A stretch of DNA of 31,129 bases, taken from the NCBI GenBank assembly GCA_003990745.1, contig RBNI01000449.1, positions 1-31,129 on the forward strand, written 5' to 3'. Positions 1,887 to 28,608 of this stretch are shown one piece after another. How positions within the stretch are numbered: position 1 is the stretch's first letter; every line of letters begins with the position of its first letter. Under the pieces are notes generated by a model that was not told where the DNA came from, did no database searches, and saw only the letters and a program-made list of their open reading frames with translations. The position numbers and the translations under genes were made by a program. Source of the stretch: Jimgerdemannia flammicorona. Its lineage: Eukaryota > Mucoromycota > Endogonomycetes > Endogonales > Endogonaceae.

Positions 1887-2189
1887 CAGTATGTCCTGTG
1901 ACCTGCAGGCTATCTGTCTGGACCATTCTCTAAGAGATATGGCACTGGCAACTACTCATCTGTGAGACTTTCATAGTCAGAGGAGTTTGAACCATCAACT
2001 AATTAGTCAAGATCAGAATCAGGCCCTTGCTCTATATGAAGGGAGCAACCCTTCACCATTATACCAAAATACAAAGGGAAGACACCAGCCCATAAATACC
2101 ACATTTCAACCCCTTGCCAGAGGTTATGGGATCAGCAAATTTTTCAGGACTGGACCAATGAATAATGATGCTCAGGAAGATCCTTATTC
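1887..2189 (+). other. Family-1 copy A: region between integrase and polypurine tract
   Basis: About 300 bp lie between the integrase stop and the 3' LTR. Read in the integrase frame it looks protein-like, but TAA and TGA stops are shared by copies A and B (also 23638-23940). It is therefore either a true untranslated spacer or an integrase tail lost in both copies. An apparent frame at 1987-2295 crosses the LTR border and is not a gene. Confidence 0.5.
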
Positions 2190-2199
2190 AGGAGGAAGA
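2190..2199 (+). other. Polypurine tract, family-1 copy A
   Basis: AGGAGGAAGA sits immediately before the LTR start TGTAATGG and is the expected primer site for plus-strand DNA synthesis. Copy B has AGGAGGAAAA at 23941-23950. Confidence 0.85.
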
Positions 2200-2441
2200 T
2201 GTAATGGTGACCCCAGAATGATGACATCAGCACAGGAGACAGCCTTTCCTTGCAAGCCACCAGGTTGGAGCATGAGAAGATTATACAGCATATGAGATGA
2301 GCAATAATGACCAACTGTGAGTCATTGTGACTATAGCACAAGTATCCTGAAGAATATAAAAGAAGGATCAAGGAACCGCAGTAGCAGCAACCAACAAGAA
2401 CCACCAATCCCAAAATAGCTCAAAGACTTACCATAAACGAA

Positions 2442-3296
2442 ATGCCTGCTGTCCACCAAACCTCAAGGTCAAGGAGCCACCAAGGTACCTCAGTTGAAGA
2501 AAGGATGTTCCAAGACATCAGAAGAGCCATGAGGACCCACTCAAGAAGGACTCCTAGTGTCTATCTGGGCACTGCAGACCCTTATCACTTCATTCTCTAC
2601 TGCTGTGAAATGGAAACAAGGATCACCATTGCTACCAAATGCCTCCAAATATGGCAGGAGTATGAAATAGGAAACCTCCTCTGCCGGAAGTTCCCACAGG
2701 CCAGCACCCAAGAGCTACAAGATACCACTCCCATGGACATACGCGAAATGAGGACGGCTAAGAAGATCCATCAGATCTTTAGGCATGCACTATGGTCAAT
2801 CCCCAACTTGGAGTATGTTAGAGTCTCAGACTTCAGAGACCTGTCATCCCACCATATCAATGTACTAGAAGCCAGGGTGGCTACAGAAGCCCAGTCCACT
2901 ATCACCCTCAACAGCAAAGAAGTAGAAGACTTCTGGCACCCCATCCTCCAGGACAACCCAGACCAATTCCTGCAAGGATTGATCTCAGTATTCCAAGGCC
3001 CAAGCATCTGGGTCAGATCTCCCCAAGACCCCACATTTGTTTCTTATTTTGTGGAAGAGAACCTCATAGACTGGAGAGCTCCAGACCTTGTTCCCAATTT
3101 TCCCACCATAGCCGAACATGATGACGTCATCAGCGATGATGTCATCCCATGCAACTTCGACATACGCAAGATGCGCGACATACTTGAAGTACGTGAAATG
3201 AGTGACCAGCATGACAAATTCGCAGATCTCATCTCCTTCAGTGATGATGATGATAATGATGATGAAGCCCCCATGGCCCTGAACTTTCTGCTCTAA
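2442..3296 (+). CDS. LTR-encoded protein of unknown function, family 1 copy A (intact, 284 aa)
   Basis: This uninterrupted frame lies wholly inside the U3 region of the LTR, so each full element carries it twice. I do not recognise the family. The ATG is kept in the two other family-1 LTRs (10021, 24193). The N-terminus is basic and Ser/Arg/Gln-rich (residues 1-35); 40-210 is mixed helical-looking sequence with several aromatic and charged segments (EYEIGNLL at 73-80, IDWRAP at ~209-214); the C-terminus from ~225 is strongly acidic, with a run of aspartates at 268-274. I see no signal peptide, membrane segment or zinc motif, so it does not look like an envelope protein. The family-2 LTR protein (28900-29811, minus) aligns with it: IR...RxTP near the start, YxIGxLL, then a matching KxHQxF...IP...RV stretch. 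Its position, after pol on the genomic RNA and inside U3, recalls retroviral LTR accessory genes, but no function can be assigned. Confidence 0.75.
   Translation: MPAVHQTSRSRSHQGTSVEERMFQDIRRAMRTHSRRTPSVYLGTADPYHFILYCCEMETRITIATKCLQIWQEYEIGNLLCRKFPQASTQELQDTTPMDIREMRTAKKIHQIFRHALWSIPNLEYVRVSDFRDLSSHHINVLEARVATEAQSTITLNSKEVEDFWHPILQDNPDQFLQGLISVFQGPSIWVRSPQDPTFVSYFVEENLIDWRAPDLVPNFPTIAEHDDVISDDVIPCNFDIRKMRDILEVREMSDQHDKFADLISFSDDDDNDDEAPMALNFLL
3122..3129 (+). promoter_or_regulatory. CRE/ATF-type palindrome TGACGTCA in U3
   Basis: A perfect TGACGTCA lies inside the 3' end of the LTR frame, followed ~10 bp later by a related TGATGTCATC. The matching site in copy B's 5' LTR (10695-10702) reads TGACATCA, losing the CpG. 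It could be a bZIP factor site upstream of the TATA box, or simply codons for acidic residues; both are possible. Confidence 0.35.
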
Positions 3297-3310
3297 GTTC
3301 TTTGTTATAT

Positions 3311-3430
3311 TGGATAATGCCAGCACTGGTATTCTCATGTAACACCAGATAATGCCAGTACTAGTATTCTGAGGTGATGCGAAATTGTTCCAGCACCAGT
3401 ATTTTTGATGTGATACCAAATAATACCAGC
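3311..3430 (+). repeat. Diverged ~35-bp tandem repeats in U3, copy A
   Basis: About three units built around CCAG(C/T)AC...GTATTCT...TGATG(T) lie between the LTR gene and the TATA box. They are the diverged counterpart of the clean 35-bp array of copy B (10896-11035). Their position fits an enhancer or a spacer. Confidence 0.6.
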
Positions 3431-3505
3431 TCTGAAACTTAGTAGTTTTAGTTATTGGAATTTATATTTAGCTTTATATCTTAGCAACCATTGAATTATA
3501 TTTTG

Positions 3506-3538
3506 TATAAATACCCCTCTTATTTCCTCTGAAATAAA
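3506..3538 (+). promoter_or_regulatory. TATA box and AATAAA signal of family-1 LTR (copy A)
   Basis: TATAAATAC at 3506-3514 is followed by AATAAA at 3533-3538. The same pair occurs at 11178-11210 and 25349-25381. The signal is so near the TATA box that it probably lies before or at the transcription start, so it would be active only at the 3' LTR. Confidence 0.65.
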
Positions 3539-3744
3539 GTCAGTTCTACTCAGTGTAATATACACACTTCCTTACAAGCAATCTAAGAGATAACAAGATA
3601 GTTAAAGATAAGAAGTTTGAGGACTATAAGACCTTGGGAAGGCACTCCAATAAGAACTTGCTTATAACAACTTGAGTTAGTCTAAGAGATACACCTTGAA
3701 GAGAATCTGGTATATTTGAAGGACTCAGCGACCACTATGTGACA

Positions 3745-3855: not shown

Positions 3856-4217
3856 TAGTACTTCCAACAAATTGAATCAAAGGTCTAATTTGATTTGATT
3901 CAAATCAAATCAAAGATTCAATTTGATTTGAGATTTGATTTGAACCCTATTTTTGAAATATAATTACTTGACGAAAACATGTCCAAATTTAATATTCTTT
4001 AGCTTGTTAGATTCCCATATATAAGAGGAATCTAACAAGCTAAAGATCATTAATTTTGGACATGTTTTTGTTGAGTTATTAAATTTTGAAAAATAGGATT
4101 TGAATTGGACCCTCAATTCAATTTGATTCAAACTTGAAAAAATCCTAATTTGATTTGATTCAAATGATCCCCCAATTTGATTCAATTTTAATTGATTCAA
4201 TTCATTTGAGAGTACTA
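3856..4217. mobile_element. Foldback/MITE-like element 1 with target duplication
   Basis: The ends are TAGTACT...AGTACTA and the whole ~362 bp is a long imperfect palindrome. Its arms consist of AATTTGATTTGATTCAAAT-type runs, and the centre lies around the pair GCTTGTTAGATTCC / GGAATCTAACAAGC. It is flanked by ATAGTAGA on both sides (3848-3855 and 4218-4225; one more matching base makes 9 bp if the first T is excluded). An 8-bp duplication would fit hAT and 9 bp Mutator-type transposases. It has no coding capacity; the frames inside are artefacts. A relative lies at 26296-26686. Confidence 0.82.
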
Positions 4218-8703: not shown

Positions 8704-9778
8704 TAGTACAGCCTGACTATATTATCATATAAATATTATCAATATGCATAAAAGTATATATGCTAGTATCAATAAATAGTCACTATTTCTTCTCTCTACT
8801 CTTTCTAAGTATTTTATATATAGCAATTAGCAATATTACTACTAGCTTATTTGAAGAAGTCAAAAAGAAGTATATTAAGGATATTAATATATAAGAAATT
8901 GCTAAACAAATCCTTGAAAAAAAAAAAAGCAATATTATAAAAAAGTTATATAAGAATATTTCTATTCAAAATAGATATATATATCAATAATATAAGGATT
9001 TGGATTCCTAATACTTCTATCTGCCTATAAATTCTATAAGAATTATATGACATATCTATAGCTAGTTATATAGAATTTGACAAGATATGTATACTAACAT
9101 ATTGTCTGAGATTCCTATAGACTCAAGATGATAGCTAACATTAAGAACTATATTATATTCTATGATGTTTGCTAAAGATATAAGTCTAGCAATCAATCTT
9201 TAGTGAAATACTATAGTTACTACCAATTCTCACCCAAAATTAAAACTATATCAAAATAAACTTTATTATCTAACTGTTAAAAATAAAGAAGAAAAGAGAT
9301 ATAATTATTATCTTTATTGATTGCCTCAGTAAGCAGACTGATTTTGTTATAACAATCACTACTGCAATAGCTCTAGAAACAGTATAATTATTTATTAATA
9401 ATGTATTCTATCTTTATAGATTACTATCAGTAATTATCTCTAATAGAGATATAAAATTCACAAGTAACTTCTGGTAAATATTTTTCAAAGAACTAGAGAC
9501 ATAACTCAAGATATCTACTACCTATTACTTACAGACAGATGACTAAACAGAATGAACTAATTTAACTCTAAAACAGATACTTAGTATCTATTATAGCTAT
9601 AGTAGAATAATTAAGATAAAAAACTAACTTTAGCTAAATTTATATATAATAATAGTATAAGTATAAGTATATATCTAAGAAAAAGTAAATAACTTTTTGC
9701 TAAATATAAAGAAGCAGTAATCTGATACAGATATATATCTGATATAATAAAAACTCTAACAGAATTTCCAAAAGACAG
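8704..9778 (+). pseudogene. int: Family-4 integrase remnant (plus strand)
   Basis: A badly decayed integrase is readable in pieces from about 8990 to 9700. IDCLSKQTDFV precedes the core, then VIISNRDIKFTSNFW carries the second aspartate and TDDxTExTNLTLKQIL the glutamate; copy D has VSDRDPKFTSHFW and TDGQTERMNRTLKQML. It is truncated on the left by the minus-strand LTR and interrupted on the right by copy B at 9779. The same element resumes at 25589. The first 280 bp (8704-8990) hold nothing I can assign. Confidence 0.7.
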
Positions 9779-10020
9779 TATAATGGTGACCTCAGAATGA
9801 TGACATCAGTACAGGAGACAGCCTTTTCTTACAAGTCACCAGATCGAAGCACAAGGAGATCATATGGTATACAAGATGAGCAATGATGACCAACTATGAG
9901 TCATTGTGACCACAGTATGGGTATCTTGAGGAATATAAAAGAAGGATTAAGGAACCATAATAGTAGCAACCAATAAGACCCATCAATCTCAAAATAGCTC
10001 AAAGACTTACCATAAATGAA

Positions 10021-10881
10021 ATGTCTGCTGCCCATCAAACCTCAAGGTCAAGAAACCACCAAGATATCTCAGTTGAAGAAAGGATGTTCCAAGACATCAG
10101 AAGAGCCATGAGGACCTGCACAAGAAGGACTCCTAGTATTAACCTGGGTACTGTAAAATCTTATCACTATATTCTCTACTGCTGTAAAATAGAAACAAGG
10201 ATCACCATTGCTACCAAATGCCTCCAAATATAGCAGGAGTACAAGATAGGAAACCTCCTCTGCCAAGAGTTCCCACAGGCCAGCACTCAAGAGCTACAAG
10301 ATACCACTCTCATAGATATATGTAAAACAAGAACAGCTAAGAAGATCCATCAGATCTTCAGGCATATACTATGGTTGATCCCCAACTTGAAGTATGTTAG
10401 AGTCTCAGACTTCAGAGACCTATCAGCCCACCATATCAATGCACTAGAAGTCAGGGTGGCTACAGAAGCCCAGTCTACTATCACCCTCAATAGTAATGAA
10501 GTAGAAGACTTCTGGCATCCTATCCTCTAGGACAACTCAGACCAATTCCTATAAGGATTGATCTCAGTATTCCAAGGCCTAAGCATCCAGGTTAGACCTC
10601 CCCAAGACCCCACATTTGTCTCCTATTTTGTGGAAGAAAACCTCATAGACTGGAGAGCCCCAGACCTCCTTGTTTCCACCACCACTAAATGTGATGACAT
10701 CATCAGCAATGACATCATCCTGCACAACATACATAAGATATATGACATATATGAGATATGTGACATATATGAAACACATGACCTACATGACAATGACAAA
10801 TTCACAGACCTCATCTCCTTTGAAGACATCCTGACCTCTGATGAGGATAAAGCCTCTATAGTCTTGAACATTCTGCTCTAA
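10021..10881 (+). pseudogene. LTR-encoded protein, family 1, copy B 5' LTR (broken)
   Basis: Counterpart of the intact frame at 2442-3296, 287 codons including the stop, in one frame from the same ATG to the same ...ILL stop region. It is broken by at least three stops that C-to-T or G-to-A changes explain: TAG at 10231 (TGG in copy A), TAG in the CTCTAGGAC segment near 10528 and TAA near 10552. The acidic C-terminus is kept but altered, with ISFEDILTSDEDK replacing the aspartate run. That the length is kept without frameshift suggests it was coding until RIP-like damage. Confidence 0.8.
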
Positions 10882-10895
10882 AGTCCTTTGGTGAC

Positions 10896-11035
10896 ACTGA
10901 ATTATTCCAGTACCAGCATTCTGATGTAATACTGAATTATTCCAGTACCAGCATTCTGATATAATACTGAATTATTCCAGCACTGGCATTCTGATGTGAT
11001 ACTGAATTATTTCAGTACTATTTTTCTATATTACT
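10896..11035 (+). repeat. 35-bp tandem repeat array, four units, in U3
   Basis: Units beginning ACTGAATTATTCCAG start at 10896, 10931, 10966 and 11001, exactly 35 bp apart. The 3' LTR has the same array at 25067, 25102, 25137 and 25172. It lies between the LTR gene and the TATA box. Confidence 0.88.
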
Positions 11036-11177
11036 AAAATTATACCAGCATTCTGAACCTGTACAACCATCAGTGTCAACCCTGGAACTTAGCAGTTTTT
11101 CCTGTTCTGGAATTTTATTTTAGTTATTGGAATTTATATTTAGCTTTATATCTTAGCAACTATTGAATTATATTTTG

Positions 11178-11210
11178 TATAAATACCCCTCTTATTTTCT
11201 CTGAAATAAA
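11178..11210 (+). promoter_or_regulatory. TATA box and AATAAA, copy B 5' LTR
   Basis: TATAAATAC (11178-11186) and AATAAA (11205-11210). This LTR would drive the element's full transcript; the start would fall shortly after the AATAAA. Confidence 0.65.
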
Positions 11211-11393
11211 GTCAGTCTACTTAGTGCAATATATACACTTCCTTACAAGTAATCTAAGAGATAACAAGATAGTTTAAAGATAAGAAGTTTGAGGACTATA
11301 AGAACTTGCTTATAACAAACTTGAGTTAGTCTAAGAGATACATCTTGAAGAGAATCTGGTATATTTGAAGGACTCAGTAACTACTATGTGACA

Positions 11394-11420
11394 ACTTGGT
11401 ATCCATTAGCTGGTGATTCA
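11394..11420 (+). other. Primer-binding region, family 1
   Basis: ACTTGGTATCCATTAGCTGG follows the LTR end. The TGG start two to four bases in fits a tRNA 3'-CCA primer, but I cannot name the tRNA from this window. Confidence 0.5.
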
Positions 11421-11519: not shown

Positions 11520-12662
11520 ATGTATCCCCCCACATTCTATAGATATACTACTGAAGAGTCAATCCTGATCTTCATTGAAGACTTTGAACAATTTACCACT
11601 ATACAAGCTCTTGGTGTGGATGCACAATTGGCCCTTCTACCAGTCAGCCTCAGAGGACCTACCAGAGACAAGTTTAATATAGCCACTATTACTGATAATG
11701 GTGCAGCCAAACTTGCCAATATGAAGGCCTTCCTCAGAACAATATACTATACTGAAGAGATCAAGAAAGCTCTCAAAGATCAACTCAATACTATCTGCCA
11801 GAGACTCAGTGAAGATCCCAACTCATTCTATATCCAAATCTGCCACCAGATTATCTTGGCTGGCTATGATGATGCCCTTAAGGAACAAATAGTGGATTCA
11901 ATCTTCCTCAAAGGAGTTTATCCTGAAATTGCCCTAGCAATCCAGTTTACCCTAACTATACTGACCCTTGATCAGAAAGTAGTCTTTACACAGAGATATT
12001 GGACTGCCAGACACCCTGCTAAATACTTAATGGAGAAAATAACTGGCATCAAGATGGAGCTATCAAAGTCAACTAGTATCATACCCACTACAGTTGTAAA
12101 CAGATAACCAACTCCACCTACCCCCAAGGCAGCCAAAGCTAACCCAGTGGAGGAACTCACCAAGCAGTTTGCTGAAATGACTGCACACCTTAGTGATGTT
12201 GTTAGAGAAGTCCAAAGTGCCAACAGGAGACCAGTGCAGAGATTTGCAGTTACTATAGAAGAATACAATATCACATGCTTCAGATGTGAAGAAGAAGGCC
12301 ACTATGTAAAGAATTGTATGACTGAAACAAGATATAAAGCCCAACCAAGCAATGCTAGCAGAACCAGAGAACAAACCAATGCAGTAGTCATCAAGGAGAT
12401 TGGTGATACTGATGATGAAGAATACTACAAAGAGCTCAAATTCTACCCTGCTACTGAAGGTACCAGAACCCAGTCCAAGCCCTATGACAAGAAGAGCAAC
12501 AGCAAGCCAGTTGGAAGACCAAAGAAGACTCCAGCTATCACTATTCAAAGCAAGACTCAACCTGAGGAGATTGATCAAGACATGGAGTTAGATGAAGCTG
12601 CCCACCAAATTATTGAAGGCACTACTCTAGTCTCAAGAGAAAGCAAAAGCAAGAAGGAATAG
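11520..12662 (+). pseudogene. gag: Family-1 gag (copy B), with CCHC zinc knuckle
   Basis: Gag forms the virus-like particle and binds the RNA. The frame from ATG 11520 runs to TAG at 12660, interrupted by TAA at 12105-12107; both are one transition from CAA/CAG and the same frame continues. The N-terminal half (FYRYTTEESILIFIEDFEQF, then SLRGPTRDKF) looks like the Gypsy capsid region. The nucleocapsid knuckle CFRCEEEGHYVKNC near 12279-12320 is a perfect CX2CX4HX4C. A basic and acidic tail follows. The frame is open upstream to 11427, but the first Met is at 11520. It reads directly into protease and dUTPase, so the product was probably one Gag-PR-dUTPase polyprotein. Confidence 0.88.
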
Positions 12663-13319: not shown

Positions 13320-14107
13320 TTGGTGAATAAGAACAAGAACAAGACACCCAAGCTCACAGATGAGCAGTGGTACAACAAGATCATTGATGGCTATACCCCT
13401 CAAGAAAGATGCCCCCATAGTACTAGGATATACTACTCTGAACACCTGAATGACTGCTGGTCCTATATCAGTGAAGTCAGGAAAATCTGCCAACAGAAAC
13501 ATGAGCAAGAAGCTGCTGAAGCAAAAAGGAAAGCTGAAGAAGATGATCAGCCCCCTGAGCTTCAAGCTGACAGTGATGATGAGGAGGAACAAGAATTAGA
13601 CATCACCCTCAAGGTCAAGAAGTTTCACCCTAAAGCTAAGATCCCAGAATACAAGACTGAAGGAGTCATAAGAATGAACCTTGCCAGCATTCAAGATGCT
13701 ACCCTTGAACCACAGACCACTACCCTACTTGGCACTGGAATTAGAGTCAAGCTACCAGAGAACCATGCTGGAATTATCAAGACCAGGAGCAGTCTGGCCA
13801 AAAGTGAAATCTCAGTTGAAGGAGGAGTAATTGACCCTGATTATACTGGTAAAATCTTCCTCATAGTCAGGAATCACAACCCCACCACCCCATTCAAAGT
13901 CAAGAAGTATGACAGAATTGACTAGATACTGATCCATGAAATCAAGAAGCCCAAGATCACTGAAGCCATCAAACTCATCAAGACCAAGAGAGGAGAACAA
14001 GGCTTTGGATCTACTGGAAGAGGAGCCTATGCCACCACCAATATTACCAAACTTGAGTACAAGAAAGACAGGGACCAGAACAAGTACACATACATATACC
14101 ATTAGAG
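13320..14107 (+). pseudogene. Family-1 linker and dUTPase domain (copy B)
   Basis: This continues the gag-protease frame. First comes a linker with YTPQERCPH...NDCWSYISE (13389-13476) and a charged coiled-coil-like stretch (EQEAAEAKRKAEED). Then the dUTPase: motif 1 IRMNLAS (probably a mutated GMDLAS; GAC to AAC), TGIRVKLPENHAGI, motif 2 KTRSSLAK, motif 3 GGVIDPDYTGK (13821-13853), motif 4 YDRID*IL with TAG for Gln, and motif 5 RGEQGFGSTG (13989-14018). Retroviral dUTPases are known from betaretroviruses and non-primate lentiviruses; here the domain sits between protease and RT. The frame closes about 85 bases past motif 5 and RT begins in the +1 frame, so the two frames overlap. Confidence 0.88.
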
Positions 14108-15543
14108 AAAACTTTCCCCTAGAAGAACAACTTCTTAAGATCCTATACCAGAATAAAGAAGTACTTGCTACAGACTTCAGAGATATCCACAATTAAGAAC
14201 CCAAGTACTACCATGAAGTTGACACTAGTGATACCAAGCCCATCTACCAGAAGGCCAGATCCATACCACCTGCCTACAGAGAATGACTGTGAGCAGAACT
14301 CAAGAAAATGGAAGAAGCTGGAATTATTAAGCAAGCTATCAGTCTCTGGGCTTCACTTATTGTCCTTGCTCCAAAGAAAGGAGGCAAGTCTGGAGAGTTT
14401 GCACCAAGACTCTGCATTAACTATAGAAAGCTCAATACCATCATTAAGAAGGATAGACAGTCCTTGCCAAATATTCAAGAAATCCTTACCACTCTTGGAA
14501 GCAAAGCCAAATACTATACTACCTTGGATCTATTCTCAGACTTTCATCAGATTGGTCTCACTCAAGATGCCAGTGAGAAATCAGCCTTCATCACACCTAA
14601 TGCCACCTATATCTATCTGCAAATGCCATTTGAAATATGCAATGCCCCAGCAAGTTTCCAGTGAATGATGAACAGAGTCTTTAGTAATGAGATTGGAAAA
14701 TGGCTCTTTGTCTATGTTGACAATATGATCATCTTCAGCAATACTGTACAGAAACATATCAACTATATATACCTAGCCCTCAAGAAGCTCAAGGAGTATG
14801 ACCTCTACATCAAGCCTAAGAAATGTAAGTTTGTGGCTCAAGAAATTGCCTACCTAGGACACCTCATCAACCAGATCAGAATCCACACAGACTGCATGAA
14901 GATTGAGGCTATTGTAGCCTACCCAAGACCCAGAACAACTACAGAAGTCCATACCTTCCTTGGACTGGCCAGTTACTACAGAAGATTTATCAAAGGATAC
15001 TCCAATATTGCAGTACCTATCTACAAGCTACTGAAGAAGGAAACCAAATTCAAATGGACCAAGAAATGCCAAGAAACCTTCAATGAACTCAAGGCCAGGT
15101 TGATCCAAACACCTATCCTCAGAAGACCAGATTGGAACCTAAAATTCATCCTGCAGACAGATGTAAGTACTATAGAACTTGGAGCAGTCCTAGCTCAGAA
15201 GAAAGATGGATATAAATATATCATCTCCTATGCAAGCCAAGGTACCCACAGAGCAGAACAGAACTATGAGTCATGCAAGCTCAAATACTTAGCAGTAGTT
15301 TAGGCAGTAGACAAGTTCTACTACTATCTAGCTGGAAAATACTTCACCATTCAAACAGACCATTCCACTCTTGCCTGGCTATTCCACACTCTGAACCCCA
15401 AAGAAATATATGTTAGATAGATCTATAGGCTGCAAGAGTATGACTGTACTGTTAAGCACTACTCAGAAAGAACTAATACCAATACTGATACACTCCCAAG
15501 GACACCCCGAAATACCCCCATCAAGACTATTCAATATGAATAA
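13936..15543 (+). pseudogene. pol: Family-1 reverse transcriptase and RNase H (copy B)
   Basis: The frame is +1 relative to gag-PR-dUTPase and overlaps it from 13936. RT blocks: KKMEEAGIIKQAISLWASL, RLCINYRKLN, YYTTLDLFSDFHQIGL, FITPNATYIYLQMPF, then YVDN at 14713-14724 where active enzymes have YVDD (GAT/GAC to AAT). RNase H follows from ~15090 with QTDVST, YESCKLKYLAVV (E to K) and QTDHST. Stops at 14196, 14662-14664 and about 15301, among others, are transition-type. The frame ends at TAA 15541-15543, overlapping the integrase ATG as in copy A. It would make the cDNA; it cannot here. Confidence 0.9.
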
Positions 15544-16094
15544 GGAGTTATACTATAGATTAATCAGCTATCTTAGGCAGCAGAAGATGCTCAACCACCT
15601 TGAACCCTGGACAATCACTATCATCAACTGGACTTGGAAACAGTTTAAACTAGACAACACTATACTTAGAAAAGGAGGAAAGCTAGTAATATCCAAATAT
15701 AAGAAGTATTAAGTAATGAAGGAAGTATATGAGCAAGGACACCTAGGAGGAACCAACATATATGACAAGGCAAGAAGAATCATGTGGTGGCCCAAAATGG
15801 AAGAAGACCTGTGCCAATTTGTCAAAGAGTGTGACAAGTACCAAAAACGAAAATAAGATCAGTAAGACCAGGTACCTGGGTTACCAAGAATTGAGCCTAT
15901 CTCCTTCCACCACATCACAATAGATATCATTGGGCCACTATCAGTAATACTATCAGGAAACTACTATATTATAGTTATTATAGACCTCTTTACCAAATAG
16001 ATAGAAGCAGGAGTATTATAAAAAGCCAATGCTCTCTCTATAGCTGACTTCTTGCATTAAGAAATCATCTGCTACTACAAGACACCAAAGCAAA
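15536..16094 (+). pseudogene. int: Family-1 integrase, 5' segment (copy B), cut by copy C
   Basis: It starts at the ATG overlapping the RNase H stop. HxxxH is kept (YEQGHLGG) but the CxxC pair is damaged (ECDKYQK). The reading stops at KTPKQ, where copy C is inserted; copy A continues with ITTDYRTEF. Several transition stops are present (e.g. about 15713 and 15855). The rest is at 22949-23637. Confidence 0.88.
16090..16094 (+). repeat. Target-site duplication GCAAA, left of copy C
   Basis: GCAAA here and at 22944-22948 flank copy C exactly, and the host integrase sequence joins cleanly across them. A 5-bp duplication is usual for Ty3/Gypsy integrases. Confidence 0.92.
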
Positions 16095-17599
16095 TATAAG
16101 CATACAACCTCCAAGCCACCAAAATCACATGGCATCCTCAGAACTAATTTGGAAACTACATGCGAGACTACAAAACAAGTTACTGAAGAGATCATCTGGT
16201 TATACAAAATATGCCAGTAAGTATAAGAACCCACCACCAAGATACAAGAATACTAGAAGAAGTACTACAACCATAAGACTGACTCTGAACTGCTATAACT
16301 AGTTTGATATACTGTACTATTATAAAAGGAAACTGAAAAGTACCAAACTCAAATCAAGACAAGAAGAACCCTATCTCATCTATCAAAAGGTTCACGAACT
16401 GCACTTATCAACTCAAGACCAAGATATACTGTGACTATACAAGACCTCATTACTTAGCAGAAGCAAAATACATTTGAACAACTCTATTTACTCTATCTGT
16501 GTCACCTCCTTTGGAGAGTGACAGATGCTTCATCTGAACTCAAGAAAGCTGACATTGTCGAAACCAATCTCATGCCATCCACATGACAGATATTATTACT
16601 AGAAATTGCCTCAGATTACAGAAAATATCATTTCCAAGAGGTTCGAACCCCCAGCCATGATATTAGGAGCCCTCACCCTAGATGAGAATGGCCAGTCCTC
16701 ATAAATGCATCAGCAGACCAAAAAAAAAGAGAACCAAGACCTGTTATCCTTATACAACCACCACCACCAAGGACAGCCTTAATCTTGCAAGAGATAGAAG
16801 TGACGATACCTTGAAACTGATGATATCAGAAGTCAGAAAACTGCTCAGACTTTGCCAGTAATGATGTCATCAATAGTGATATCATCAAAGACTAACCAGA
16901 CAGTACCTAAACCTATAAATAGCTTAGCAGTCATAGTATAGTTAGATTAGCCTTATATGACATGACTGTGAACTGACTCAGTAGTCAGATGATCTCTTGA
17001 CATATCAGATCACACTTGTACTATATGACTGCATTCCGACTCAATAAGGCACTTAGTGCTATATCTATATCTAGCATAGTCCAGATAGTCCCTCACTAGT
17101 ATAAATACCCCCTCCCCCAGACCTCAGAATCTCAGACTTGAACAGATCTGAACAATCTGAACACAACTCCTGAACACTTTCCCACAATATCTCTTCACAT
17201 AACTACTCCTAGTATAGTAATATCATAAATAGCAAATAAACCTATTTAATAACCCACAAACCACTCTTAAGTAAATCCGCTCCCTGTTAGGTCCCACTCC
17301 TAACCTGTCATGAAATTTCCTAATTGGGTATTATCTGCAGCAATATGCCAATTCAACTAAGCTGGTCTTAGTTTCTTGAACTTCCTGAAATATGGAAAAT
17401 CCTGAATATCCAGAACTAGTCCGAAAAAGAACTTTGGTTGAGATGTCAATCCAATCTTGAAATCAATAAGCATAGAGGACATACTCTATATGAAATTGAT
17501 CTTGACCATAAGAAAACAGTCTTCCAGAATATCCAGAACTTCTAGAAAACCCTTTCAGAACTATGTAATGATTACCCTAAAAAAAACAACCCTCCTACA
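16095..17599 (+). repeat. Family-2 5' LTR of copy C (1505 bp)
   Basis: It begins TATAAG (TGTAAG with G to A) and ends CCTACA; the intact end pair seen in copy D is TGTAAG...CTTACA. The TATA box TATAAATAC is at 17100-17108 and AATAAA at 17235-17240. Compared with copy D (2063 bp) it lacks about 560 bp from U3, and the LTR gene survives only in scraps. Short frames such as 17457-17687 are not genes. Confidence 0.9.
17100..17240 (+). promoter_or_regulatory. TATA box and AATAAA of family-2 LTR, copy C 5'
   Basis: TATAAATACCCCCTCCCCC is shared with copy D. The AATAAA lies 130 bp downstream, so in this family the signal is probably inside R. Confidence 0.6.
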
Positions 17600-17625
17600 A
17601 CTTAGTAGCAGTGGTTTACAATCCA
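17600..17625 (+). other. Primer-binding region, family 2
   Basis: ACTTAGTAGCAGTGG follows the LTR end. If TAGTAGC derives from TGGTAGC by G to A, it would resemble the initiator tRNA-Met type of site known from yeast elements. The family-4 element has ATTTAGTAGTAGCAGATGG at the same place. Confidence 0.4.
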
Positions 17626-18534
17626 ATTCCACTTCAAGACACTTTCTCACCCTACTACAAACCCCTTTGCAAATTCCTACAAGTTAGTATAAAGCCCAAC
17701 CTCTGAACTAGAATTTATTCTGAACTATCTGACAATCTGGAGAGAATTGAACCTGACGTATAAGGATAATTTGACCTCCACACCTGCAACAAGTGGGACA
17801 AACTTCATTCAAAGAAAGAAGTATTCCAATTAAACTAGCAAATAGGTGAAACTCTATTCACTGAACTCCTTGCACTATACCCAGTAAGTCAAGATGAAGA
17901 AGGTCTTATTGAAGCCTTCTTTACTCTTCTCAATAAGAGTTTTGTCAGCTCTACAAATCCGAGTGACCTAGGACAACCAGCAGCAGTCTTTTTAGCCTTA
18001 GTTCCTCATAAAGCCCAAGCCTCTATAGCCAAGTGGCTTAACTCTACCAACTTTCACCATATCAGGACCAAGACTGCTTTATACTACCAATTCCAGAACA
18101 GCAAGGCCTGCCATATTCTTAAAGAAGAAGCAAGAGAAACCCTTCACCAACTACCTGACCCTGAACCAGAAGCAGGCCCTGCTACAGCCCTACCTGAATC
18201 TGGAACCAACACTGAACCAGAACTTGACTTTGAATTAAGTCCATCTGAAATCAGATATACAACTAATTCTGTCTACTTTGACACCAAGCAAACCCAATTA
18301 CATGGGGATCAAACCAAAGAAGAGGAGGAGTATCTCAGTGAATTCGATCCCAGATATACCACTGAAGGAGATATACCTCTATCAGGACAAAATACACCAA
18401 TACAGCAATAGACAGCTATCTATCAAGCCCTTACTCCAGACCCATAACTATTACTCCAGCAACTTATACAGACCCAAAGAACTCCATCACACTCTGCATC
18501 AGTACCTCAAGTAGTACCAGTAACACTACTACCA

Positions 18535-18550
18535 GCAGTCTAACTACCTC
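18535..18550 (+). repeat. 16-bp target duplication, left
   Basis: GCAGTCTAACTACCTC occurs here and at 18982-18997, flanking the poly-T-initiated insert. Long duplications of this size are typical of LINE-type target-primed insertion. Confidence 0.92.
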
Positions 18551-18981
18551 TTTTTTTTTTTTTTTTAATGGACTCATAGTCCTACAGAATTTTATTAGAA
18601 GGAAACCTAGACTATATAGGCCAAAACTCTCCCCCACCACCCACCAAACAATATCCCCCCATTAACCTAGGCTACTAAATTGTCCAGCAGTCCCACTGCT
18701 CCAACTATGCCTATCAAACACCAGCTACGTCAATCCCCATGACATAGACTAGACTTGTCTGCTCACCAGGGCTGGATCATTGTTTACATGTGAGAGCACA
18801 CCTATGCATCAGATCTAGCAGCACTGGGACTGAATAAAGAATAGCCCCCCGAATCCCAAAAGAAAGCCTGAGGTAAAGAAAAACCCCCCAACCAACCAAC
18901 AGAGAGCAAAGTGGATTCAAAGCGAGTGAGTAAAGGACTTACACACAGCACCTTCCTCAAAGGACTTACATATGGGCTAGG
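18551..18981 (-). mobile_element. Retroposed polyadenylated transcript or SINE (431 bp, minus strand)
   Basis: The plus strand begins with 16 T, so the inserted RNA ran on the minus strand and ended in poly(A). AATAAA lies about 30 bases upstream of the tail (CTAATAAAATTCTG, minus strand), as in a polymerase II mRNA. It is flanked by a perfect 16-bp duplication. Base composition is far more balanced than the surroundings and the duplications are undamaged, so the insertion is young. I see no long reading frame and no clear tRNA-like promoter boxes, so it is more likely a processed 3' UTR or non-coding transcript than a SINE. It contains a repeated TGTAAGTCCTTT near its 5' end. Confidence 0.85.
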
Positions 18982-18997
18982 GCAGTCTAACTACCTC
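18982..18997 (+). repeat. 16-bp target duplication, right
   Basis: Second copy of GCAGTCTAACTACCTC; the gag sequence resumes here. Confidence 0.92.
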
Positions 18998-20060
18998 CAG
19001 TAAACAACATGGCAAACCAACAGATTCTAGACCTCACAGCCCAGGTAGCAATAATGGCAGCAACCATTACTGCCTTAGCTGAATAGACCTGACCTATCAA
19101 AAATCTGAGCCTACTACCTTTAATGGTATAGCACAAGAAGTCCAAAGCTTTATTAGTGTAGTGGACACCAACTTTGAAGCCAATCAATGGACCAATGAGC
19201 GAGTTGCTGACCATGTTCTGATAAACAATCAAGACCACACTCTGGAACAACTCTTTGCTACCACCACAGCCTATGTCTGCTAAGTTGTTATATTCTTCTG
19301 AGGACCTGCCAAAGAATGGTGGCAAACCCTTCTTGAAAAACCCCTCACATGAGACACCTAACCTGCAGTAGTTGCTCAGAATGCAGCAAACAATACCCCA
19401 GGATATGGAGCCCATCCTGCAGCCCCTGGACTCAAACAACTCATGATTGCTCAATATTGCAGTGAAACCATGATTGCTGAATCTCAAGTAAAACTCCACA
19501 ATCTCAAATTCGATGTACATGGTAAAGAAGAATTCAAAACCTTCTGTACAAAACTCAAGTCACTCCTGAACACTGTTGGCCTAGGATACATCGCCAATGA
19601 CAAAGCACGAAATGGTACAAGAGCAGACCATTTATTCAATGCCCTGCCTGAATGGCTTACTAAAAAAATCCAAGAACAAGGCCGCCCAGTTGGTTGTGAT
19701 CACCAACAATGGTGCCTGGCAAGAATCAAGACTATGGTTAAGCAAATCTTAACAGCTGGACCAATTCTGCCCCAAAGACAATTCAACAACAAGGAAAAGA
19801 CTTGGACCAAGAAAGAAGAACCCAAGCATGAAGCACCCCAAGCTCCCTCCACATCCACCTCTTGGATACCCAGAAATCATGAACCTACCCAGCCAAGTAC
19901 CTTCAAGAAACTCACCAAAGGAGAAAGAAATGAACTTTGAAGAAGCAGAGTATGCTTCTATTGTTGAAAGACAGGACACATAGCCAGTGTCTGCCCCAAC
20001 CAAAAACCATGAACAGCAACATGAGTAACTGTTACTACTCTGCACCACCTCAATAACCTG

Positions 20061-20490
20061 ATCACCAGAACACTAGACTTTGTCAAGTTAAGACAAACTG
20101 CCAAGGCCCCAACTAAAGGAAGTCAAAAAGCAGCTGGATATGATCTGTATGCAGCCAAAGAAGCTACAGTTTCCAACCAAGAAGTCAAGCAAGTCTACAT
20201 AGGAATCAGCATCCAAATCCCTGAAGGACATATTGGAAGAATATGCTGTCATAGCAGCCTAGCACTGAAAGGACTCTCAGTAGAAGGAGGAGTCATTGAC
20301 GAAGATTACACAGGCAAAATTATTGTCCTTATCCGAAACCACAGTTGGACACCCTTCAAGATCCCTATAGGTTTCTGTATTGTCTAGATACTATTCAAAA
20401 AAATTGAGTCAACTCTGACAGTCAAGGAAGTCCCTGAACTACTACCTACCATCTGAGGATCCAAAGGATTTGGCTCATCAAACAAGGCCC
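20061..20490 (+). pseudogene. Family-2 dUTPase domain (copy C)
   Basis: In frame with the gag zinc knuckle. Motif 1 AAGYDLYAA is canonical (20130-20156); then YIGISIQIPEGHIGRI; motif 2 CHSSLALKG (Arg expected before SS); motif 3 GGVIDEDYTGK is canonical; motif 4 is damaged (IGFCIV*I); motif 5 GSKGFGSSN (~20456-20485). The enzyme hydrolyses dUTP during reverse transcription. Position is gag-dUTPase-linker-protease, the reverse of family 1. Motif 1 is better kept here than in the family-1 copy. Transition stops in motif 4 and before motif 5 make it a pseudogene. Confidence 0.9.
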
Positions 20491-20514
20491 CAGTTCAACC
20501 TACCATGAACAAAG

Positions 20515-20675
20515 AAGAATAATTTTACAAGAAAATCGAAGACAGATATATACCAAGTAGCCAATGCCCTCATGGTATTGAAATGTACTCTTTATGAATG
20601 ATTGATGATTGCTTCTCTTGTGTCAATGAACTGGCTCAAAGAAGAACCAACAGAAGGAAAGCTCCTACAACCGAA
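20515..20675 (+). pseudogene. Family-2 linker with CPH...DC signature
   Basis: YIPSSQCPHGIEMYSL*MIDDCFSCVNEL resembles the family-1 linker YTPQERCPHSTRIYYSEHLNDCW (13389-13460). Shared are Y-x-P, CPH, an aromatic spacing residue, and DC followed by an aromatic. Here it follows dUTPase and precedes protease; in family 1 it follows protease and precedes dUTPase. The function is unknown. Confidence 0.6.
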
Positions 20676-20679
20676 ATCA

Positions 20680-21060
20680 CCACCATTGGATCAGACAAAC
20701 TGCTTACACTCAAAGCTTTTATCAACTGAGTACCTGTCAAAATTATGATAGACAGTGGTGTCTCAGGCAACTTCATTAATGAAGAGACAGCCAACAGACT
20801 CAAGGTCTTCACATCTGCAGTACAACAAACTCAAACAGTTGCCATAGCTGATGGAACCTCACATGTCATTAACAAGGAAGTCCACAACCTACCCTTCCAA
20901 ATTAGTGACTACTGAGTACATGTTACTCTCCAAATTGTACCACTTCCTGACAATGAGATCATTCTTAGAACCCCATGGTTGAAACAAGAGAACCCCATGA
21001 TCAATTGGATAAACCATTCTCTGACCATCAAGAAAGGATGCCACAACTTCAAACTGTAAG
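20680..21060 (+). pseudogene. pro: Family-2 aspartic protease (copy C)
   Basis: Same frame as gag and dUTPase. The active-site strand MIDSGVSGNFI has D-S-G at 20751-20759 (the usual DSGASGNFI with A to V). VAIADGTSHVI and EIILRTPWLKQENPMINW match Gypsy proteases, where the last motif is usually xxILGxPWLxxxNPxIDW; G to R is transition-type. TGA stops at about 20728 and 20914. It would mature the Gag-Pol polyprotein. Confidence 0.87.
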
Positions 21061-21110
21061 GTGAAAAGGACGCACTCAGTTCCAGTGACCCTGGACCAAA
21101 GATCACTCAT

Positions 21111-21420
21111 ATCAACAAGCTACAACTCAAGAAATTAGCCAAGAAATACCCTCTCTTTGCTATCTCCATTTGTCTATCCAAAGGAGAACCCAAGAATTCT
21201 GAAGAAGACTTTTCCAAAGTTAACAGCTATGTTAGACCCTTACTTCAGAAAGTCCAAGATATATTTCTGAACTGAACCACAGAACCATCTGTACCTGCCA
21301 TTATCAATGACCAAGAAAAGTACGAAGTTGAACAAATCCTCAACAAATACAGCCACAAGAACCATCTAAATGGTACAACAACACCAGAACATATTAAAAG
21401 GCCCCGATAAGGACATCAAA
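21111..21420 (+). pseudogene. Family-2 RT leader joined to chromodomain scrap by a large deletion
   Basis: INKLQLKKLAKKYPLFAI begins the segment before RT. At about 21250-21270 the sequence jumps to FLN*TTEPSVPAIINDQEKYEVEQILNK, which in copy D lies just upstream of and within the chromodomain (LFPNRTTEPP...EEYKVEQILNK). So RT, RNase H and integrase are gone in one deletion of several kb, possibly through a shared TATTtC-GAAC microhomology. The rest of the chromodomain is also missing after HKNH. The segment runs into the polypurine tract. Confidence 0.8.
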
Positions 21421-21424
21421 AGCT

Positions 21425-21438
21425 AAGAAGAAGAGAGT
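21425..21438 (+). other. Polypurine tract, family-2 copy C
   Basis: AAGAAGAAGAGAGT immediately precedes TGTAAG of the 3' LTR; copy D has AAGAAGGGGAGAGT. Confidence 0.85.
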
Positions 21439-22943
21439 TGTAAGTGCACAACCTCCAAGCCACCAAAATCGCATGGCATCCTCAGAACTAATTTGGAAAC
21501 CACATGCGAGACTATAAAACAAGTTACTGAAGAGATCATCTGGTTATATGAAATACACCAGCAAGCATAAGAACCCACCGCCAAGATACAAGAATACTAG
21601 AAGAAGTACTATAACCATAAGACTGACTCTGAACCACTATAACTAGTTTGGTGTATTGTACTATTACAAAAGGAAACTGAAAAGTACCAAACTCAAATCA
21701 AGACAAGAAGAACCCTATCTCATCTACCAAAAGGTTCATGAACTGTACTTATCAACTCAAGATCAAGATATACTGCAACTATACAAGATCTCATTACTTA
21801 GCAGAAGCAAAACACATTTAAACAACTCTGTTCACTCTATCTGTATCACCTCCATTGGAGAGTGACAGATGCTTCATCTGAACTCAAGAAAGCCAACATC
21901 ATCGAAACCAATCTCAAGCCATTCACGTGACAGATATTACTACTAGAAATTGCCTCGGATTATAGAAAATATCATTTCCAAGAGGTTTGAACCCCCAGCT
22001 ACAACATTGGGAGCCCTCACCCTAGACGAGAATGGCCAGTCCTCGCAAATGTACCAACAGATCAAAGAAAAAGAGAACCAAGACCTGTTATCCTTGTACA
22101 ACCACCACCACCAAGGACAGCCTTAATCTTGCAAGAGATAGAAGTGATGATACCTTAAAACTGATGATGTCAGAAGTCAGAAAACTGCTCAGACTTTGCC
22201 AGTGATGATGTCATTAATAGTAATGTCATCAAAGACTAACCAGACAGTACCTAAACCTATAAATAGCTTAGCAGTCATAGTATAGTTAGATTAGCCTTGT
22301 ATGACATGACTGTAAACTAACTCAGCAGTCAGACAATCTCTTGATATATCAGATCACACTTATACTATATAACTGCATTCCAACTCAGCAAGGCACTTAG
22401 TGCTACATCCATATCTAGCATAGTCCAGATAGCCCCTCACTAGTATAAATACCCCCTCTCCCAGATCTCAGAATCTCAGACTTGAACAGACCTGAACAAT
22501 CCAAACACAACTCCTGAGCACTTTCCCACAATATCCCTTTATATAACTACTTCTAGTATAGCAATATCATAAATAGCAAATAAATCTATTTAATAACCCA
22601 CAAACCACTCTTAAGTAAATCTGCTCCCTGTTAGGTCCCACTCCTAACCCTGTCATGAAATTTCCTAATTGGGTATTGTCTGCAGCGATACACCAATTCA
22701 ACTAAGCTGGTCTTAGTTTCTTAAACTTTCTGAAATATGGAAAATCCTGAACATTCAGAACTAGTCCGAAAAAGAACTTTGGTTGAGATGTCAATCTGAT
22801 CTTGAAATCAATAAGTATAGAGGACATACTCCATACAAAATTGATCTTGACCATAAGAAAACAGTCTTCCAGAATATCCAGAACTTCCAGAAAACCCTTT
22901 TAGAACTATGTAATGGTTACCCTAAAAAAACAACTCTCTTACA
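21439..22943 (+). repeat. Family-2 3' LTR of copy C (1505 bp)
   Basis: Starts TGTAAGTG, ends CTCTTACA, giving the inverted end pair TGTAAG/CTTACA. TATAAATAC is at 22444-22452 and AATAAA at 22579-22584. A segment at 21656-21865 reads DQDILQLYKISLLSRSKTHL, matching DTDITQMSQHQKLIARKHQE of the copy D LTR protein; further homologous pieces continue in another frame, so a broken LTR gene is present here too. Confidence 0.9.
21656..21960 (+). pseudogene. Remnant of family-2 LTR-encoded protein (copy C 3' LTR)
   Basis: The first 70 codons align with residues ~70-155 of the copy D LTR protein (28900-29811 minus). After a TGA the match resumes in another frame (RVTDASSELKKANIIETNLK against QIDDMIQELNHKYLEYIETT). 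The 5' LTR has the equivalent at about 16310-16620. Frameshift, stops and a U3 deletion make it non-functional. Confidence 0.55.
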
Positions 22944-23940: not shown

Positions 23941-24192
23941 AGGAGGAAAATGTAACAGTGACTCCAGAATAATGACATTAACACAGAAGACAGTCTTTCC
24001 TTGCAAGCCACTAGATCAAAGCACAAGGAGATCATATGGCATACAAGATGAGCAATAATGATCAACTGTGAGTCATTATAACTATAGTATGGGTATCTTG
24101 AGGAATATAAAAGAAGGATCAAGGAACCACAGTAGCAGTAACCAACAAGACCCACTAATCCCAAAATAGCTCAAAAACTTATTATAAATGAA

Positions 24193-25052
24193 ATGTCTGC
24201 TGCCCACCAAACCTCAAGGTCAAGGAACCACCAAAGTATCTCAGTAGAAGAAAGGATGTTCCAAGACATTAGAAGAGCCATGAGGACCCACACAAGAAGG
24301 ACTTTTAGTATCAACTTGAATACTATAGAATCTTATCACTATATTCTCTACCACCATAAAATAGAAATAAGGATCACCATTGCTACTGAATACCTCCAAA
24401 TATAGTAGGAGTATGAGATAGAAATCTCCTCTGCTAGGAGTTCCTACAGGCCAGCACTCAAGAGCTATAAGATGCTACTCTCATAGATATATACAAAATA
24501 AGGACAGTTAAGAAGATCTATCAGATCTTCAGACATGTACCATGGTTGATCCCCAACTTGGAGTATATTAGAGTCTCAGACTTCAGAGACCTATCAGCCT
24601 ACTATATCAATACACTAGAAGCCAGAGTGGCTACAGAAGCCCAGTCTACTATTACCCTCAATAGTGATGAAGTAGAAGACTTCTGGCATCTCATCCTCCA
24701 GGACAACCCAGACCAATTCCTGTAAAGATTGATCTCAGTATTCCAAGGTCCAAGCATCTAGGTTAGACCTCCCCAAGACCCCACATTTGTCCCCTATTTT
24801 GTAGAAGAGAACCTTATAGACTGGAGAGCCCCAGATCTCCTTGTTCTCACTGCTACTGAATGCGATGATATCATTGATGATGACATCATCTCATGTAATA
24901 TATGTGAGATGTACAATATATGCAAGACATATGATATATATGAAACACATGACCTATGTAATGATGATAAATTTGTAGACCTCATCTCCTTTAAAGACAT
25001 CCTGATCTCTGATGAAGATGAAGTTCTTATGGTCTTGAACATTCTGCTCTAA
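24193..25052 (+). pseudogene. LTR-encoded protein, family 1, copy B 3' LTR (broken)
   Basis: Same start (ATGTCTGCTGCCCACC) and end (ATTCTGCTCTAA) as the other two family-1 copies. It carries several transition stops (e.g. TAG near 24403) and a one-base deletion around 24420, where the 5' LTR has ATAGGAAACC and this one ATAGAAATC, so the frame is shifted. On a genomic transcript this copy, not the 5' one, would be the one present. Confidence 0.8.
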
Positions 25053-25066
25053 AGTCCTTTAGTGAT

Positions 25067-25206
25067 ACTAAATTATTCCAGCACTGGTATTTTGATGTGA
25101 CACTGAATTATTCCAGTACCAGCATTCTGATGTAACACTGAATTATTCCAGCATCAGCATTCTGATGTGACACTGAATTATTCCAGCACTATTTTTCTAT
25201 ACCATT
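25067..25206 (+). repeat. 35-bp tandem repeat array, four units, in 3' U3
   Basis: Unit starts at 25067, 25102, 25137 and 25172; same copy number and phase as the 5' LTR. Confidence 0.88.
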
Positions 25207-25588
25207 GAAATTATACTAGTATCCTGAACCTGTACAACCATCAGTGCCAACCCTGGAACTTAGCAGTTTTTTCTGTCCTGGCATTTTATTTTAGTTATTG
25301 GAATTTATATTTAGCTTTATATCTTAGCAACCATTGAATTATATTTTGTATAAATACCTCTCTTATTTCCTCTGAAATAAAGTCAGTCTACTCAGTACAA
25401 TATATACACTTTCTTACAAGCAATCTAATAGATAACAAGACAGTTTAAAGATAAGAAGTTTGAGGACTATAAGACCTTGGGAAGGTACTTCAATAAGAAC
25501 TTGCTTATAACAAACTTGAGTTAGTTTAAGAGATATATCTTGAAGAGAATCTGGTATATTTGAAGAACTCAGCGACCACTATGTGATA

Positions 25589-26167
25589 ACAGTTATATCT
25601 CTGAATATCTCTGATAAAGAGAAGTATAATAATCCAAATAATTCTATATAGATAACTTATTATAATATGAGTACCTAGCAAAGACACTAAGAATAAACTA
25701 AGAACAAAATCACTACTGCCATCCTTATAACTATTAAATACTAATAAAATTCTACTAAACCACTCTCTATCAATATATAAAGCTCTAAAGACTTAGTTTC
25801 AAATAAAGCCCAATATTATCTTAGAAGAATCCAATATTTCCAGACCTTATACTACTAATAAGAATTAAAAGAGTACTATAAGATTAGATGTCTCATTTAT
25901 CAATAAGCTACTCTCAGTAGTACTAAGTAATAAGTTCACCTTTCCATTAATAACTATATTTATATTGTTACCAAAAGACTTTATATATATTCTTTTCTGC
26001 ACCTGATTCCAAGTCCTTAACTATCTTTATAGAGTTTTTCCTGAGAATATTACTAATTTGAATAATAAATAATAGAGTAATATTATCTTTTAAGTAGTTT
26101 AGTATACTGCTCTTCAGTTTGATAAGTATTTAGAGTTTAGTGCCAAATTCAATAAATAGGTTTAGAC
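25589..26167 (+). pseudogene. Family-4 3' internal region (plus strand), after copy B
   Basis: Continuation of the element interrupted at 9778. It should hold the integrase C-terminus, but the sequence is too decayed to read; only scraps such as FDKYLEFSAKFNK near the end look protein-like. The assignment rests on the upstream integrase and on the polypurine tract and LTR that follow. Confidence 0.5.
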
Positions 26168-27931: not shown

Positions 27932-28410
27932 TGTAAGAGGGTTGCTTTTTAGGGTAACCATTACGTAGTTCTGGAAGGGTTTTCTGGAAGTTCTGGATAT
28001 TCTAGAAGACCGTTTTCTTATGGTCAAGATCAATTTCGTATGGAGTACGTCCTCTATGCTTATTGATTTCAAGATCGGGTTGATGTCTCAACCAAAGTCC
28101 TTTCAATGGACTAGTTCTGGATGTTCAGGATTTTCCGTATTTCAGGAAGTTCAAGAAACTAAGACCAGCTTAGTTGAATTGGTGTATCGCTGCAGACAAT
28201 ACCCAATTGGGAAATTTCATGACGGGGTTAGGAGTAGGACCTAACAGGGAGCGGATTTACTTAAGAGTGGTTTGTGGGTTATTAAATAGGTTTATTCGCT
28301 ATTCATGATATTGCTATACTAGGAGTAGTTGTGTGAAGGGGTATTGTGGAAGTGTTCGAGTCTTGTGTTCGGATTGTTCAGGTCTGAGATTCTGAGGTCT
28401 GGGGGAGGGG

Positions 28411-28419
28411 GTATTTATA
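28411..28419 (-). promoter_or_regulatory. TATA box, family-2 copy D LTR
   Basis: TATAAATAC followed by CCCCTCCCCC on the minus strand, as in copy C. It lies downstream of the LTR gene, so the element's own promoter would not transcribe the 5' copy of that gene. Confidence 0.65.
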
Positions 28420-28608
28420 CTAGTGAGGGGCTATCTGGACTATGCTAAATATGGATGTAGCACTAAGTGCCTTGCTGAGTCGGAATACAGTCATGTAGTA
28501 CAGGAGTGATCTAACATGTCAAGAGATCGTCTGACTGCTGAGTCAGTTCACAGTCATGTCGTACAAGGCTAATCTAATTATACTTATGACTGCTAAGCTA
28601 TTTATGGT

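Follow-up and report, generated by a model that had tools for sequence, protein, structure and literature searches.

A predicted protein gene lying wholly within the U3 region of Gypsy LTRs in the fungus Jimgerdemannia flammicorona

Accessory and regulatory genes at the 3' end of retroviral genomes that reach into, or act on, the long terminal repeat (LTR) include nef, tax and HBZ of HTLV, and tas/bel of foamy viruses, which differ from the case described here in being retroviral and in lying only partly in the LTR or antisense to it. Among retrotransposons, the copy-number control protein p22 of Ty1 is an element-encoded, trans-acting and dose-dependent product, made from the internal gag gene and not from the LTR; control of this kind would agree with a protein to whose production each LTR contributes. 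The closest described system is MMTV, whose U3 ORF encodes both Sag and Naf, the latter a negative regulator of transcription that shares part of the coding sequence, and whose U3 contains a promoter P2 besides P1, with P2 driving Sag in B cells (PMC9412291). In fungi, the element crapaud of Podospora has LTRs of 339-443 bp and a U3 that diversifies in the part before the TATA box; its published diagram shows two ORFs, gag and pol, and none in the LTR (PMC10787394). Fungal LTR elements bearing a dUTPase include one of Tuber melanosporum (reference 15 of that source, Tmt1); elements of this type share an internal dUTPase with the element B/C described below, and an LTR gene is not mentioned in the section of that source that deals with them (PMC2864245). 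In titles and abstract beginnings of the open-access literature, a scope that leaves most subscription papers outside, we found no fungal LTR described as containing an ORF, and phrase matches for an LTR-internal ORF in that literature led to MMTV only. MMTV already provides an example of a U3 accessory gene; what appears to be new is the protein family, its host lineage and its spread over several Gypsy families.

The window analyzed here is a stretch of 31,129 nucleotides from Jimgerdemannia flammicorona (contig RBNI01000449.1, assembly GCA_003990745.1), to which all coordinates refer. It contains three plus-strand copies of an LTR that we term family 1. Copy A (2200-3744) is a 3' LTR with TG..CA ends common to genome copies, directly preceded by the polypurine tract CAGGAGGAAGA (2189-2199, plus strand), and the same or nearly the same tract stands upstream of other 3' LTR copies. 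Copies B (9779-11393) and C (23951-25588) are the 5' and 3' LTRs of one element, element B/C, which has a primer-binding region at 11394-11413 (plus strand) and is flanked by the target site duplication (TSD) ACAG (9775-9778 and 25589-25592). Among 29 further genome copies, all starts were TGTAA or TATAA, and the 23 ends that could be read (the other six are cut) were ..TGACA or differed from it by one base. CAGGAGGAAGA or a near variant directly upstream marks the 3' LTRs of the family, while ACTTGGTGCCCATTGGCTGG or a near variant directly downstream marks the 5' LTRs; one copy, L030, has sequences of both types. Comparison of flanks by eye gave 4-bp TSDs for the element in the window (ACAG), for the pairs C84 (CTAT) and C4392 (ATAT), and for the solo LTRs L026 (CTAC) and L018 (ATAT). 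These TG..CA ends, short TSDs, polypurine tract and primer-binding site are those of a Ty3/Gypsy element. The borders that a sequence-only reading of the window had drawn from polypurine tracts, TG..CA-type ends and the primer-binding region were therefore confirmed in genome copies, with the 4-bp TSDs as additional support.

In copy A, an intact ORF of 284 aa (2442-3296, plus strand) has 242 nt of LTR before it and 448 nt after it. It is located wholly inside 2200-3744 and upstream of TATAAATA (3506), so the frame does lie within the true LTR borders. A complete ORF inside U3, upstream of what we take to be the genomic promoter, is the arrangement of an MMTV-type U3 gene, and the analogy to MMTV sag drawn in the sequence-only reading is apt. 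The same reading had stated that each of the three LTRs contains the same ~285-codon frame, intact in copy A; a homologous stretch is present in all three and open in A, but B and C carry internal stops, so the statement is true of the homologous stretch and not of an open frame. As expected if LTR pairs hold the frame, the homologous stretch was found in both LTRs of four pairs, namely B/C, C84, C4392 and C3776, of which the last is cut at its 3' end and gave no TSD. We set aside another candidate pair, C3800, in which the first LTR breaks off at LTR position 1137, and also the copy L086, whose LTR match begins only at position 1089. In first-order Markov simulations with the dinucleotide make-up of 2200-3500 (1301 bp, six frames), the longest stop-free run was 218 codons, and none of 2000 simulated sequences reached 284.

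The genome (134.8 Mb, 7754 contigs) has 22 matches to the Fungal_trans domain, which mark it as fungal. A search of it with the family-1 protein gave 137 scored copies among 4411 first-look candidates. The best 30 copies were taken for this family, and likewise for a second family (family 2, see below); internal stops were absent from 14 of the best 30 family-1 copies, A included. Twenty further family-1 copies were chosen by hand, many for lacking stops, and another six were added. Because such protein-picked sets favour open frames, we also took 20 LTRs by similarity of the non-coding 3' part (the U5-picked set) as a check free of this preference; these were drawn from 41 matches, had adequate contig upstream and were absent from the earlier sets, with at least three others that had room left out. 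The ORF is spanned by 19 of these 20 copies and is fully open from the usual start in only four of the 19. Together, the sequence data confirm a predicted protein gene wholly within the U3 of a Gypsy LTR, present in LTR pairs as well as in solo LTRs.

The net length of the ORF differs from that of copy A in all 19 U5-picked copies, and in 17 of them the difference is a multiple of three, the exceptions being L083 (a large deletion) and L093 (out of frame by one). In the core (LTR positions 243-880), length is changed in only two of the 19 copies, in neither case by a triplet; in the linker (881-1036), it is changed in all 19, by triplets in 18, with many different lengths; and in the TGA-repeat stretch (1037-1072), it is changed in nine, always by triplets. 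In the 3' flank, by comparison, all 19 copies differ from A, four of them by triplets, one 1-bp difference from A being common to all; when this is discounted, nine copies are changed, one by a triplet, and most of the changes are units of a 35-bp repeat. The difference in triplets between flank and ORF has a Fisher p of 1e-4, which is nominal since the copies are related. The protein-picked copies, a set that favours open frames, have 18 distinct indels within the ORF, 15 of them triplets, versus 1 triplet among 30 in the flanks. Part of the triplet indels arises in a 3-bp TGA repeat and nearby 9-bp repeats in the C-terminal third of the ORF, and such repeats shift by their own units without selection, which weakens this evidence. 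In family 2 (30 sequences aligned), the ORF has three indels, each a 1-bp loss in a single copy and none a triplet, and several indels of the 3' flank, likewise not triplets, are common to more than one copy; family 2 shows neither a shared frameshift nor a triplet rule.

Substitution tests gave mixed support for selection on the U3 ORF. Among 36 frames of at least 262 codons, sites segregating in at least two copies comprise 126 of 517 zero-fold and 39 of 74 four-fold sites (nominal p 1e-6), and over the 400 most diverged pairs the zero-fold/four-fold ratio is 0.50 for transitions and 0.59 for transversions. The ratio is 0.68 for A versus B and 0.67 for A versus C, compared with 0.52 for the integrase of the same pair; a pol row in the frame of 203, with a ratio of 0.86 and 33 stop codons, was set aside because it is out of frame over the integrase. 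C-to-T decay does not produce transversions, and for these no clear zero-fold deficit is seen: L101 differs from A at 19 of 535 zero-fold and 1 of 92 four-fold sites, L104 at 12 of 513 and 1 of 88, and transversions seen in at least two copies (9 of 517 zero-fold and 2 of 74 four-fold sites) are too few to tell. Tree-based N/S over codons 1-200 is 0.36-0.67 in non-hypermutable and 0.8-3.6 in hypermutable contexts; for transversions, inner branches have 2.6 (13 N, 1 S) and terminal branches 0.9. Relative to synonymous changes, CpA changes that create a stop are rarer on inner than on terminal branches (0.11 versus 0.44). In the dN/dS comparison proposed in the sequence-only reading, the ratios of about 0.5-0.7 are not clearly low, the integrase having 0.52.

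The two LTRs of the pair C84 differ by 115 transitions and 1 transversion. Differences made up almost entirely of transitions point to C-to-T hypermutation or methylation decay, and LTR divergence therefore cannot simply date these insertions; with many copies dead and decaying by transitions, the substitution tests are blurred. Between the LTRs at 9779-11393 and 23951-25588, we counted 194 transitions to 3 transversions.

The window also holds, on the minus strand, an LTR of family 2 (27932-29994; 2063 bp, TGTAAG..TTACA), preceded by the polypurine tract AAGAAGGGGAGAG; 5-bp TSDs were read by eye at three copies of this family (L034, L039 and L045). Its U3 ORF (28900-29811, minus strand) codes for 303 aa here, ended by a TAG, and for up to 400 aa in some other copies, and the genome search with the family-2 protein gave 130 scored copies among 4020 candidates. 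Next to this insertion, at 27932-27700 in minus reading, a chromodomain-like stretch of another element was seen by eye. Direct comparison of the family-1 and family-2 proteins is marginal, with 37 of 1000 shuffles equally good. P0007, a relative of the family-1 protein, matches family 2 with a z of 6.6 over the whole and 8.2 over the core (0 of 1000 shuffles), and this link suggests at the sequence level that the two U3 proteins are related. P0007-like genome copies (family 3) are old and full of stops; five of them, fetched among the copies with full-length matches, share a block of ~1.45 kb with a TATA motif (TATA1), the ORF, a second TATA motif (TATA2) and AATAAA in that order. Beyond family 1, the U3 gene is accordingly found in family 2, whose LTR borders are fixed, at the same LTR position and, judging by layout, in family 3. 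With integrases that share only 26% identity over 182 residues in families 1 and 2, the trait looks old, unless it was exchanged.

Outside this genome, the family-1 protein matched five, then seven, proteins encoded on short contigs of public origin (jgi, ena), several of them partial, with identities of 46-87% in the aligned part; these contigs are probably metagenomic, and none of the homologs on them has a Pfam domain or a telling name. The family-1 ORF had no Pfam match at E<=1 and its profile no PDB match at E<=5, weak Pfam and PDB rows for the U3 protein were set aside as chance-level, and no named relative was found in Pfam, PDB or a database of 5.8 billion proteins. The Pfam and PDB searches revealed no homology to the MMTV Sag family. 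Five comparisons of the U3 ORF with gag likewise gave no relation.

In the family-1 LTR, TATA1 (TATAAAAG, 2355-2362, plus strand), a putative promoter of the U3 gene, is present in 67 of 70 family-1 copies and stands 87 nt upstream of the ATG, with no intervening ATG by eye. TATA2 (TATAAATA, 3506-3513, plus strand), the putative promoter of the genomic RNA, was found in 48 of 48 copies, with the same motif in family 2 (TATAAATACCCC, 28412-28419, minus strand) and in all five family-3 copies, and the putative poly(A) signal AATAAA (3533-3538, plus strand) in 46 of 46. Between the ORF and TATA2 lie 3.3 copies of a 35-bp tandem repeat with CCAGCAC(C/T)(A/G)G motifs (3314-3430, plus strand), possibly an enhancer or a target of the U3 protein. 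When the LTR upstream of the ORF is compared between families 1 and 3, no 24-mer is better conserved than the TATA1 segment (an average of 18 of 24 positions, against a median of 13.4), which is present in all five family-3 copies; TATA and AATAAA motifs are nearly free of C and G and would decay slowly, so their conservation is inflated. Family 2 has the TATA2/AATAAA pair and no TATA1 before its ORF. The simplest reading of these motifs is a two-promoter LTR, in which TATA1 would serve a short U3 mRNA and TATA2 the genomic RNA. Of the three expression routes that the sequence-only reading had offered (the 3' LTR part of the genomic RNA, a spliced RNA or a separate promoter near the LTR start), the separate promoter is best supported, by TATA1 in families 1 and 3, though not by family 2.

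Such a two-promoter LTR would resemble that of MMTV, which has its ORF in U3 and a second U3 promoter (PMC9412291), TATA1 being the putative counterpart of the latter in families 1 and 3. MMTV also has a dUTPase (PMC9412291), as does the family-1 element. The present case differs in being a fungal Gypsy element with the gene in two or three families and a predicted product, and a superantigen role would make no sense in a fungus.

Element B/C has the Ty3/Gypsy order of domains, all on the plus strand. Its gag is assigned by position to the reading frame 11520-12107, itself without a Pfam match, and the next frame (12147-12662) contains a CCHC knuckle; a dUTPase domain (13320-13925; PF00692, E 9.9e-17) lies between gag and the reverse transcriptase (RT), and RT and RNase H (14665-15303) are followed by the integrase (IN), the stretch from RT to the first part of IN (14665-16094) being interrupted by an insertion. 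The insertion, the N element (16095-22943, plus strand; TSD GCAAA), is a derivative of family 2 in which 50 bp from the start and ~727 bp from the end of the LTR remain. Of the U3 ORF it has at most an 18-residue remnant (E 0.11), and neither RT nor IN was detected in it with family-1 queries and the family-2 integrase end. Its U3 nevertheless gave 40 scored full matches among 1353 candidates, two of them in the window. Multiplication of an element without U3 ORF and pol suggests that the ORF is dispensable in cis. A frame of the N element (19443-19940) looks gag-like by eye and has no Pfam gag match. Elsewhere in the window, AT-rich fold-back repeats at 26308-26632 and 3950-4092 are related to each other in both direct and inverted orientation.

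The family-1 protein has a basic N-terminus, a middle part predicted to be helical, and an acidic C-terminal third with the conserved hydrophobic motifs ..DLISF..DDDDEAP..LNFLL. Profile and structure prediction, proposed in the sequence-only reading, yielded no domain or solved relative of the 284-residue product, and the AlphaFold2 model is poor (pLDDT 42.5) and gives no usable fold. In 35 of 36 family-1 frames (the exception being L071), the most acidic-hydrophobic 40-aa tile falls in the C-terminal third, where tiles have a net charge of -8 to -18 and 5-14 W/F/Y/L residues. The best tiles of 16 family-2 frames have a net charge of -7 to -11 and 11-15 W/F/Y/L; their place varies between the middle of the protein and the region close to its end. 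Among five control proteins, an integrase tile reaches -8 and the others range from -5 to +1, so acidic tiles are not unique to the U3 proteins. An acidic stretch rich in bulky hydrophobic residues, as in acidic transactivators, is present but not specific. From the acidic C-terminal third and the multiplied derivative without the ORF, we infer that the U3 protein may be a trans-acting regulator of the element, which is the least certain of our conclusions.

Taking these data together, we think it probable, with considerable reserve, that the LTR constitutes a small gene, made up of the TATA1 promoter, the U3 ORF and AATAAA, that encodes a trans-acting regulator of the element. The ORF, ~280 aa in family 1 or 400 aa in family 2, occupies the U3 between the LTR start and the putative genomic TATA box, and in family 1 its frame has survived many changes of length. 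TATA1, 87 nt before the ATG, would drive a short mRNA carrying this ORF alone and terminating at the AATAAA within the LTR. With promoter, ORF and poly(A) signal all inside the LTR, 5', 3' and solo LTRs could all express the ORF. Its protein would act in trans on the element, most likely on LTR transcription, with the number of LTRs setting the dose.

Expression could also take other routes. The U3 of the 3' LTR comes after the integrase in the genomic RNA, and the ORF might be expressed from there as the last cistron, through splicing like retroviral env or nef, with TATA1 unused; family 2, which is without TATA1 and has an LTR start resembling a CA-rich leader, would suit such a route. However, in the LTR upstream of the ORF, families 1 and 3 agree best at TATA1, no ATG separates it from the ORF start, and a last cistron would yield nothing from solo LTRs, yet the solo LTR L026 keeps an open frame; we regard this route as unlikely, while giving it some weight. 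The good conservation of TATA1 would equally fit a genomic RNA that starts there, which would make the ORF, inside a giant R region, the first cistron at the capped 5' end. This is improbable, as TATA2 closely followed by AATAAA is common to families 1, 2 and 3 whereas family 2 has no TATA1, and the N element multiplied although its LTR is reduced to the initial 50 bp and the final ~727 bp of that of family 2.

As to function, the protein might counter host defence (methylation, hypermutation or RNA silencing) instead of regulating its own transcription. The variable linker, with its many in-frame length changes, agrees with this, and so do copies heavily hit by transitions, as in C84 (115:1), a load that implies strong defence pressure; no direct sign of it was found, however, with no domain or solved relative recognized and no usable fold, and we give such a role a minor share of probability. 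That the frame is a functionless passenger, whether it is open by chance or because it descends from a host gene that was captured, would be compatible with the mixed substitution tests, the many broken copies and the triplet changes that fall partly within 3-bp and 9-bp repeats. The failure of all 2000 simulated sequences to reach 284 codons, the net triplet length changes in 17 of 19 U5-picked copies and the homologous frames at the same LTR position in diverged families make this very improbable.

Returning to the LTR as a regulator gene, we suggest tentatively, as a possibility that we would not yet expect to hold in full, that a fungal Gypsy lineage has, independently of MMTV, made each LTR a self-contained regulator gene, in which solo LTRs are live, a hundred or more dispersed copies set the dose, and derivatives lacking pol and the ORF live off the product. 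LTRs are normally treated as regulatory and neutral sequence, used to date insertions and masked before gene finding. If some of them are protein genes, their divergence would not be neutral and solo LTRs would not be inert. If true, an MMTV-like U3 gene would have arisen in a fungal Gypsy lineage, which would offer a tractable case for the self-regulation of an element through a product whose dose tracks LTR copy number.
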